Shown: positions 938-1,796 of the stretch, in pieces | How positions within the stretch are numbered: position 1 is the first letter of the stretch | Layout of the letters: each line of letters opens with the position of its first letter | Source: an uncultured Dokdonella sp. | GTDB lineage: Bacteria > Pseudomonadota > Gammaproteobacteria > Xanthomonadales > Rhodanobacteraceae | Assembly: GCA_934526015.1 (NCBI GenBank) | Contig: CAKSZY010000037.1 | Location: forward strand, 1 to 16,242 | Direction of reading: 5' to 3' | Length of the DNA: 16,242 bases | Notes under the pieces: model-generated | The model's database searches: none | The model's input: the letters and a program-made list of their open reading frames with translations, nothing else | Told to the model about the DNA's origin: nothing | Program-made: the position numbers and the translations under genes

Positions 938-1105
938 GGGGCGGCACCCAGCTCCTTTGCCTAGTCTCTTCGCATTCTCTTGGGTGTGTCGAACCCCGGT
1001 TCCGCTCGCCTCGGCGATTCTCATCGTTGTCATCCCCGCGGATGCAGGCAACCCGCCCCTGGCTTTGGTTCTTCGCTCTCTCTTGGGTGGGTTGAACCAC
1101 GGGTT

Positions 1106-1128
1106 CCGCTCGCCTCGGCGGCGAGCGG
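1106..1128. repeat. Hairpin 1, left arm of the composite element
   Basis: ccgctcgcc at 1106-1114 pairs perfectly with ggcgagcgg at 1120-1128 around a 5-base loop. The same stem recurs in the right arm at 1720-1742 with the loop reversed and complemented. Confidence 0.75.
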
Positions 1129-1162
1129 GTCACTTTCTCTTGCTTGCCCAAGAGAAAGTAAC
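1129..1162. repeat. Hairpin 2, left arm of the composite element
   Basis: gtcactttctcttg (1129-1142) pairs with caagagaaagtaac (1149-1162) around the loop cttgcc, 13 of 14 pairs. The right-arm counterpart at 1685-1720 has a different stem sequence but keeps pairing. Confidence 0.75.
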
Positions 1163-1190
1163 CAAAGAGAAGGGCACCCCGGCAGTCGCG

Positions 1191-1213
1191 CCGGACGGAC
1201 TGCGTCCGCCCGG
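1191..1213. repeat. Hairpin 3, left arm of the composite element
   Basis: ccggacggac and gtccgcccgg flank a tgc loop, with 9 of 10 pairs and one A-C mismatch. The corresponding right-arm hairpin (1635-1657) has the same length and loop size but different paired bases. Confidence 0.7.
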
Positions 1214-1333
1214 TCCCCTGCGGTGCTCGCCAGCCACCGGCCGGCGAACAACTCGGCCATCCATGGCCTCAAACAGTTCGCCTTTCCCCGGTGTCTGACT
1301 GCGCTCCTCGGCGCGACTGAGGGGGGAACGTCA

Positions 1334-1366
1334 AGAGCAGAGCCAGAGCAGAGCCAGAGCAGGGCA
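1334..1366. repeat. 11-base tandem repeat in the element core
   Basis: agagcagagcc occurs twice in tandem (1334-1344, 1345-1355), followed by an imperfect third copy (1356-1366). Its content resembles the complement of the CTCTGG hexamers in the array that follows, so it may be the decayed opposite side of the core. Confidence 0.75.
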
Positions 1367-1387
1367 AAAGCAGAGCAAACGCACATG

Positions 1388-1513
1388 CTGTTGCTCTGGC
1401 CGTTGCCGTTGTCGTTGTCGTTGCAGTTGCAGTTGCAGTTGCAGTTGCAGTTGCCATTGCTGTTGCCGTTGCCGTTGCCGTTGCCGTTGCCGTTGCTCTG
1501 GCTCTGGCTGTTG
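1388..1513. repeat. Array of 21 hexanucleotide repeats
   Basis: The 126 bases divide without remainder into 21 hexamers, mostly of the form NNNTTG: CTGTTG, CTCTGG, 2 CCGTTG, 2 TCGTTG, 5 CAGTTG, CCATTG, CTGTTG, 5 CCGTTG, 2 CTCTGG, CTGTTG. Runs of identical units suggest growth by replication slippage. The outer units are arranged almost symmetrically (CTGTTG and CTCTGG at both ends). There are no spacers, so this is not a CRISPR array. Translated it would give alternating dipeptides, but no frame here looks like a real gene. Confidence 0.9.
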
Positions 1514-1634
1514 ACCCACCCACCCCTGCAGGAGCGCCGAGGAGCGGAGCCGACCAGCGGGGAAAGGCGAACTGTCTGAGGCCATGGATGGCCGAGTTGT
1601 TCGCCGGCCGCTGGGCGGCGAGCACCGCAGGGAA

Positions 1635-1657
1635 CCGATCGGGCGCAGCCCGATCGG
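1635..1657. repeat. Hairpin 3, right arm of the composite element
   Basis: ccgatcgggc (1635-1644) and gcccgatcgg (1648-1657) form a perfect 10-base stem with a 3-base loop. It is the inverted counterpart of 1191-1213. Confidence 0.8.
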
Positions 1658-1684
1658 CGCGGATGCCGGGGTCGTCTTTCCTTT

Positions 1685-1720
1685 GGTTACTTTCCTTTGA
1701 CGAGACAAAGGAAAGTAACC
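1685..1720. repeat. Hairpin 2, right arm of the composite element
   Basis: ggttactttcctttg (1685-1699) and caaaggaaagtaacc (1706-1720) form a perfect 15-base stem with a 6-base loop (acgaga). It is the counterpart of 1129-1162 and the strongest single hairpin in the element. Confidence 0.85.
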
Positions 1721-1742
1721 CGCTCGCCGCCGAGGCGAGCGG
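1720..1742. repeat. Hairpin 1, right arm of the composite element
   Basis: ccgctcgcc (1720-1728) and ggcgagcgg (1734-1742) form a perfect 9-base stem, the inverted counterpart of 1106-1128. Confidence 0.75.
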
Positions 1743-1796
1743 AATCGAGGTTCGACACACCCAAGAGAAAGCGAAGAGCCAAGGCAAAGGAGCTGG

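Follow-up and report, generated by a model that had tools for sequence, protein, structure and literature searches.

A dispersed composite inverted repeat with a predicted triple-stranded pseudoknot in the DUF4159-moxR spacer of an uncultured Dokdonella sp.

REP sequences are palindromic repeats that carry GTAG and CGTC tags, and inverted pairs of hairpin units, present in many copies and located away from the gaps between divergent genes, are the mark of BIME and REPIN elements. Triple-helix pseudoknots are known from the SAM-II riboswitch and from telomerase RNA, transcripts of eukaryotic transposons and lncRNAs can end in triple-helix elements, and in the canonical major-groove triplex a parallel third strand places U on A and C on G. 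Small RNAs of the CsrB/RsmY/RsmZ type have a number of hairpins whose loops contain GGA, a loop motif that is the hallmark of CsrA/RsmA sites. The size given for a REP unit is 20-40 bp (PMC3733652). Families of repeated stem-loops, mostly intergenic, with a shared predicted fold and a suggested action as RNA, were described in 40 genomes, including Haemophilus influenzae and Pasteurella multocida (Cozzuto et al. 2008, PMC2267715); the main text of that paper makes no mention of Xanthomonas or Xylella, nor of the terms composite and pseudoknot. For Xanthomonas, homologues of CsrB, RsmY and RsmZ are reported as not found (PMC7694677).

The element considered here resembles REP, BIME and REPIN sequences in being made of multicopy hairpin units that lie outside genes and form inverted pairs, but its unit is of about 220 nt as against the 20-40 bp stated for a REP (PMC3733652), and it carries a predicted pseudoknot and a mirror tract. 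With the families of Cozzuto et al. it shares repeated intergenic units having a common predicted fold; it is set apart from them by their published description only, and a distant member could be among them (PMC2267715). It agrees with pseudoknots of the SAM-II and telomerase type in its predicted topology, with a U/C connecting strand in the major groove and loop pairing outside the hairpin, and differs from them in being a dispersed bacterial repeat, predicted from sequence, and in having a longer stem (upper part of 8-9 bp plus about 6 bp). Several GGA-loop hairpins are likewise a feature of CsrB/RsmY/RsmZ-type sRNAs and of RsmU of Xanthomonas campestris (PMC7694677), whereas here the repeat is multicopy and dispersed, the sites are predicted, and each window arm has one GGA loop. 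The window and 13 other loci gave no match over the gathering score in Rfam 15, and no description of this repeat was found among the publications surveyed, in keeping with an earlier note on this DNA, whose author knew of no named family with such an architecture. Sub-gathering Rfam matches (MIR1858, isrG and others) were taken as chance.

The window is the whole stretch of DNA that was analysed (16,242 nt, contig CAKSZY010000037.1). The composite occupies the spacer between a DUF4159 gene, ending at 937 (PF13709, 1.1e-52), and moxR (AAA_3, 2.9e-62), for which the ORF opens at 1889 and the start was taken at 1907 (Table 1). The earlier note had placed here, at 948-1796, a palindrome of two diverged inverted units of about 220 bases, with outer units, around a repeat core; it proved real and slightly wider than proposed. 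The arms (1104-1325 and 1523-1744) are 222 nt long and 83% complementary, the outer pieces are 78 nt long, and a period-6 array detected by TRF lies at the centre. In the window, the copy examined in this respect, the outer pieces (91% complementary) form terminal inverted repeats in the sense used for MITEs. The outer piece occurs twice on the left side, in copies that have diverged to 76% (954-999 and 1057-1102). The self-inverted local alignment score was 601, whereas none of 100 dinucleotide shuffles scored above 40, and the predicted RNA fold of the region reached -635.6 kcal/mol (z = -32 relative to 20 shuffles).

Table 1. Features of the composite element, with positions in the window
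Feature	Position	Strand	Remark
Whole composite element	939..1805	.	Inverted arms; score 601, shuffle maximum 40
Left outer inverted piece	939..1016	+	Pairs with 1728-1805; 91% complementary
Stretch separating the two left copies of the outer piece	1017..1056	.
Diverged second copy of the outer piece	1057..1105	+	76%
Unit A: core, fold, closing stem	1106..1325	+	Same unit as the dispersed copies; folds
Unit A hairpin H0	1106..1128	+
Unit A hairpin H1	1128..1163	+	1128-1142 / 1149-1163, loop 1143-1148
Unit A linker AAAGAGAA	1164..1171	+	Mirror of H1 3' strand (third-strand tract)
Unit A block GGGCA	1172..1176	+	Complementary to H1 loop TGCCC (1145-1149)
Unit A multibranched stem P2	1177..1325	+	Closing 1177-1193 / 1309-1325
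Tails of both units	1332..1522	.	TRF period-11 tract 1332-1378; hexamer array 1399-1496
Unit B, inverted	1523..1742	-
Block complementary to unit B H1 loop	1672..1676	-	GACGA with TCGTC
Unit B linker AAAGGAAA	1677..1684	-	Third-strand tract
Unit B hairpin H1	1685..1720	-
Unit B hairpin H0	1720..1742	-
Right outer inverted piece	1728..1805	-	Pairs with 939-1016

The neighbouring genes were compared with those of 30 orthologous DUF4159-moxR loci, in 28 of which both genes could be placed in the right frame. In these 28 loci the spacer measures 8-321 nt, as against 969 nt here, and none of the 28 spacers contains the core motif. The DUF4159 protein ends here in VNIVMYALAS-stop, in agreement with the C-termini of its orthologues, so that no gene is broken by the element. 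None of the 7 translated ORFs overlapping 939-1805 matched a Pfam family over the cut-off, the sole sub-threshold match being New_glue (17.7 bits for a cut-off of 31). A coding element was therefore rejected, and the absence of a protein gene stated in the earlier note is supported. On inspection by eye, the spacers of seven orthologous loci (L001, L002, L008, L012, L019, L023 and L027) contain other palindromic repeats, and this spacer thus appears to be often invaded; it looks like a favoured insertion site, as if different repeats had entered it in different relatives. A second palindromic repeat was observed in the window at 11-176 (78% self-inverted), where the DUF4159 ORF region begins, and the spacer of L001 is filled by a repeat that looks similar to it by eye. 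The core motif is situated upstream of DUF4159 in three loci of Luteimonas (L012:4571, L024:4481 and L027:4733). No target-site duplication was obvious by eye at the window locus, and the single copies of G001 did not reveal exact ends.

Comparison of the copies shows that the unit consists of H0, H1, a purine linker, a loop-complementary block, P2 and, in a good part of the copies, a period-6 tail. Of the 73 units considered, out of 80 distinct ones, 30 had a period-6 tract on the tail side and 2 had one upstream. Alignment A2 comprised 11 of 14 representatives, including both arms of L061, L120 and L121 and omitting L123 and both window arms; alignment A1 held 20 of 25, L050, L054, L057, L088 and L095 being omitted (N, insert or tandem). 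Among the 85 consensus pairs of A2, 46 had at least one double compensatory change, and cells changed on both sides were far more numerous than those changed on one side. The predicted structure of the unit is in this way shown to be kept through compensatory change as its sequence drifts. The two window arms, when compared with each other, had 7 compensated intra-arm pairs, whereas 2000 random trials averaged 0.88 and never exceeded 6; as the structure was itself selected on these two arms, the comparison is biased towards this result. Because of these 7 pairs, each arm can be said to have kept its own fold in spite of the imperfection of the large palindrome. The very large branched stem proposed in the earlier note is thus possible, but each arm also folds alone, and it is that fold which is conserved.

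Hairpin H1 has two further properties. Its linker is a mirror of the purine strand of the hairpin (for instance AAGAGAAA/AAAGAGAA, AAAGAAAA/AAAAGAAA and AAAGGAAA/AAAGGAAA), and its loop is complementary to the block that follows the linker (TGCCC/GGGCA, GTGGCC/GGCCAC, TCGTC/GACGA). Both rules are obeyed by units A and B of the window. A first test, performed on 36 stem and loop types drawn from 69, gave a mean mirror run of 7.8 (4.8 when shuffled) and a mean loop pairing of 4.47 (3.36 when shuffled), values reached by none of 2000 shuffles. A wider test took in the covariance-model loci and viral loci, the 99 parsed combinations being reduced to 68 types by keeping one per stem and loop and requiring 18 nt downstream. 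The linker mirror was exact in 60 of these 68 types, the rule being incompletely followed in the other 8; the matching fraction was 0.94 (0.59 when shuffled) and the mean loop pairing 4.41 (3.24 when shuffled), again reached in 0 of 2000 shuffles. The parser used in the wider test requires some purine tract after the hairpin while leaving its identity free, and a few tracts of 5-6 nt were included; the shuffle statistics of both tests ignore kinship among the copies. The co-variation of the third-strand match and of the loop match across the genomes examined is the most surprising part of the element.

These two matches bear on the view that the element is a selfish palindromic repeat without function, in which hairpin-templated repair keeps the stems perfect, so that compensation would be mutational and not selected. 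The near-perfect Watson-Crick stems suit that view, as does a copy number that is high and patchy. Templated correction, however, yields inverted and not mirror repeats, whereas the linker mirror keeps matching the stem, and the pairing of loop and block crosses the hairpin, outside the same palindrome. A repeat devoid of function is an appreciable possibility, though on balance an unlikely one.

On the strand opposite to the one that begins with H0, the order of the parts is loop-pairing block, pyrimidine tract, 5' strand of the stem, loop and purine strand. Read in this direction, the region would form an H-type pseudoknot in which the first connecting strand (e.g. UUCUCUUU) follows the purine strand in parallel orientation along the stem's major groove and makes predicted U.A-U and C+.G-C triples. 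Such a triple-stranded pseudoknot probably does form, in RNA or in single-stranded DNA. Dispersed repeats of bacteria are usually described as plain palindromes, while here a three-strand match and a crossing loop pairing are supported by sequence variation across lineages. The motif is directly testable as an RNA or DNA tertiary structure, natural variants being plentiful (up to 173 core copies per genome).

Whether the fold acts as RNA was approached through strand asymmetries. In well-aligned helices, the H0-first strand had 15 A.C and 2 G.T cells, together with 689 Watson-Crick and 18 other cells (724 non-gap cells); an excess of A.C on this strand corresponds to G.U on the opposite one, and therefore points to the latter as the RNA. 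Of the 15 A.C cells, 8 belong to one H1 pair, which reads C.A in 49 and T.A in 31 of the 80 distinct units on the H0-first strand. Outside H0 and H1, the opposite strand had 7 G.T, 1 A.C and 35 other single mismatches (16, 15 and 60 in control DNA), an asymmetry that is suggestive only, so that the strand signal is thin. The loops are also strand-specific: on the opposite strand, GGA was present in the loop of 186 of 405 hairpins from 74 of the 80 distinct units, as against 40 of 699 in locus edges, and TCC in 16 of 405 as against 47 of 699. The number of GGA loops per unit varies (none in 11 of the 74 units, one in 8), and the single one of each window arm reads ATGGAT. Since the loops bear GGA, RsmA/CsrA is the first candidate for a binding protein.

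An alternative is a DNA-level element, whose hairpins, mirror tract and loop pairing would act in single-stranded or supercoiled DNA, serving as a recognition site for a protein of transposition or replication or forming an R.R-Y triplex, the RNA fold being a by-product. The scarcity of wobble pairs speaks for it, such almost purely Watson-Crick stems suiting palindromes at the DNA level no less than RNA; the prevalence of two-sided over one-sided changes and the spread of the units as repeated DNA agree with it, and the mirror tract would also suit a purine third strand in DNA. Between tandem genes, moreover, no strand preference is apparent: for 18 single units in this position, the supposed RNA strand was that of the genes in 11 and the other in 7. 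Against it stand the wobble asymmetry in favour of one strand and the strand-specificity of the loop motif. An action at the level of DNA is a real possibility, if on balance an improbable one. For want of a clear strand preference between tandem genes, our estimate for an action as RNA on the strand opposite to the H0-first one was lowered from an even chance to somewhat below it. The structured RNA envisaged in the earlier note is thus supported as regards conserved structure (compensated pairs, third strand and loop pairing), in terms that stop short of transcription.

If the element acts as RNA, it would be carried by the transcripts of neighbouring genes, its fold would protect or end the host transcript, and it may bind proteins, RsmA/CsrA being the first candidate partner of the GGA-bearing loops. 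The composite itself is proposed to spread as a non-autonomous element. Taken together, a composite repeat with a pseudoknot triplex, a role as RNA and non-autonomous spread is the best explanation overall, and one that has very nearly an even chance of being right. That the element is a putative sink for RsmA/CsrA is a long shot. It would be equally bold to suppose that the RNA of a dispersed element ends in a triple-helix pseudoknot, as a bacterial equivalent of the protective triple helices on eukaryotic transposon and lncRNA ends, while its arrays of GGA hairpins titrate RsmA/CsrA and its copy number tunes a global regulator. A link to RsmA, still a candidate one, would fall in a group for which, according to the work on Xanthomonas, CsrB, RsmY and RsmZ homologues were not found (PMC7694677).

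The way in which units are associated was examined among the listed places of 11 chosen genomes (54 of the 173 places being considered in G104). The 33 pairs of neighbouring units separated by at most 1.2 kb comprised 27 tail-to-tail, 6 same-strand and no head-to-head pairs, so that all 27 opposite-strand neighbours are tail to tail. The distance between the partners depends on the genome: 317-358 in G104 and, for the most part, 477-574 in G025 and G109, where 169 and 911 are exceptions. The covariance-model search added 8 tail-to-tail pairs (G226, G370, three in G505, two in G436, and contig C65 of G002). Two close head-to-head pairs were observed in G015 (C1:2449478-2449710 and C8:1201716-1201927), against the tail-to-tail rule. 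In G109 the whole composite is present at 8 loci (L110-L117), with 84-97% identity over about 670-1095 bases, and the two arms inside one copy are about 68-70% alike, with a fold common to both. Single units occur alone in G001 and, by pattern, also in G113, so the arms that the earlier note proposed to search for separately do exist on their own; its idea of one repeat having inserted beside another is not supported as a one-off accident, given the recurrence of the pairs and of the G109 composite. The window element is a copy of a recurring composite and not a chance meeting of two repeats. In several single copies of G001 (L073, L075, L080, L082 and L084), a shared stretch like TCGAGCNGATTG was noted by eye beyond the tail, so that the unit may exceed its drawn length.

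An assembly artefact was envisaged, copies being often situated at contig ends in the draft genome G002. The same architecture lies inside long contigs of G109, G027 and G080, however, and the window arms differ at 38 of 222 positions, which makes this origin practically negligible.

Gene context was surveyed for 90 loci with a crude composition-based gene caller; the element fell within a called ORF in 3, was bordered by gene calls on either side in 47, and lacked a neighbour call in the rest. These 47 loci comprised 22 convergent, 23 tandem and 2 divergent gaps (convergent versus divergent, P=3.6e-5). Such scarcity in divergent gaps is compatible with an element that is tolerated, or of use, downstream of genes and not in promoters; it is equally what selection against harm would leave of a selfish repeat.

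The inverted pairs of hairpin units, their many copies and their avoidance of divergent gaps would also agree with a BIME/REPIN-like element moved by a RAYT (Y1_Tnp) transposase. The pairing expected of such elements is indeed found (27 of 27 opposite-strand pairs and 8 more tail to tail, apart from the two head-to-head pairs of G015), but no Y1 transposase gene was flanked by the repeat: the core motif is absent from all 16 Y1_Tnp loci inspected (9 of 10 genomes, 2.0-3.3 kb each), a further difference from REP, BIME and REPIN sequences. Y1_Tnp was present in 34 of 45 element-bearing genomes and in 34 of 52 others (P=0.37), and the 11 element-bearing genomes without a match include G072 (32 copies) and G076 (24 copies). 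RAYT was therefore rejected as mobiliser, and with a unit far larger than a REP this origin is considered very unlikely. A reverse transcriptase was rejected as well, RVT_1 being found in 13 of 45 element-bearing genomes and 13 of 52 others (P=0.82); 8 element-bearing genomes have neither family. For these two families, the only ones checked, the lack of association over 97 genomes and the absence of the core motif from the Y1_Tnp loci also argue against the DNA-level element discussed above.

The segment 939-1805 is almost certainly one copy of a dispersed composite family. Searched with the arm, 13 of 23 related genomes gave matches, the most in any one genome being 35; these counts are lower bounds, since 34 candidates were scored per genome. 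In a sample of 97 Rhodanobacteraceae genomes, drawn from the family to which G002 (the genome with locus L002 of Dokdonella immobilis) belongs, 45 contained the 17-base core pattern AAAGTAACCAAARRRAA, the highest number being 173 copies in one genome, while the reversed pattern used as a control was found in 0 of 97. The reading of the locus as a dispersed, non-coding and inserted element thus stands. In 274 gammaproteobacterial genomes, the pattern was present in 17, Dokdonella (G002) included, and the reversed control gave one match each in 7; the full hairpin was recovered by strict parse in 23 of 29 loci (L130-L158) of this set. At E 1e-4, a covariance model of the core, built on 20 hand-picked units (alignment A3), gave matches in 10 of 150 genomes of Pseudomonadota, Dokdonella (G002) again included. 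Among 72,556 plasmid records a match was obtained in one, NC_014633 of the fusobacterium Ilyobacter polytropus, at 6 places, and the one place examined obeys the linker and loop rules. If true, this would be a class of elements without an Rfam family, extending across the Pseudomonadota samples and to one fusobacterial plasmid. The 16 kb window itself contains two units only, A and B.

In 50,697 phage records, the whole element had no match at E 1e-5. At least 120 stretches of viral contigs match the 17-nt core pattern; the hairpin was recovered by strict parse in 0 of the 80 pattern-matching loci listed, and most of these matches are therefore attributed to chance. Two viral contigs among the other 40, L262 and L264, carry the H1 hairpin with the stem state TTTTTCTT/AAAAAGAA. 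In L301 (G370, a genome that looks AT-rich), composite copies were observed with the lower stem CCTAC/GTAGG and not GGTTAC/GTAACC, and these copies still keep the linker and loop rules. An inner-hairpin motif like AACTCG..CTCAAACAG was noted by eye as common to window positions 1224-1285 and to the distant L301.
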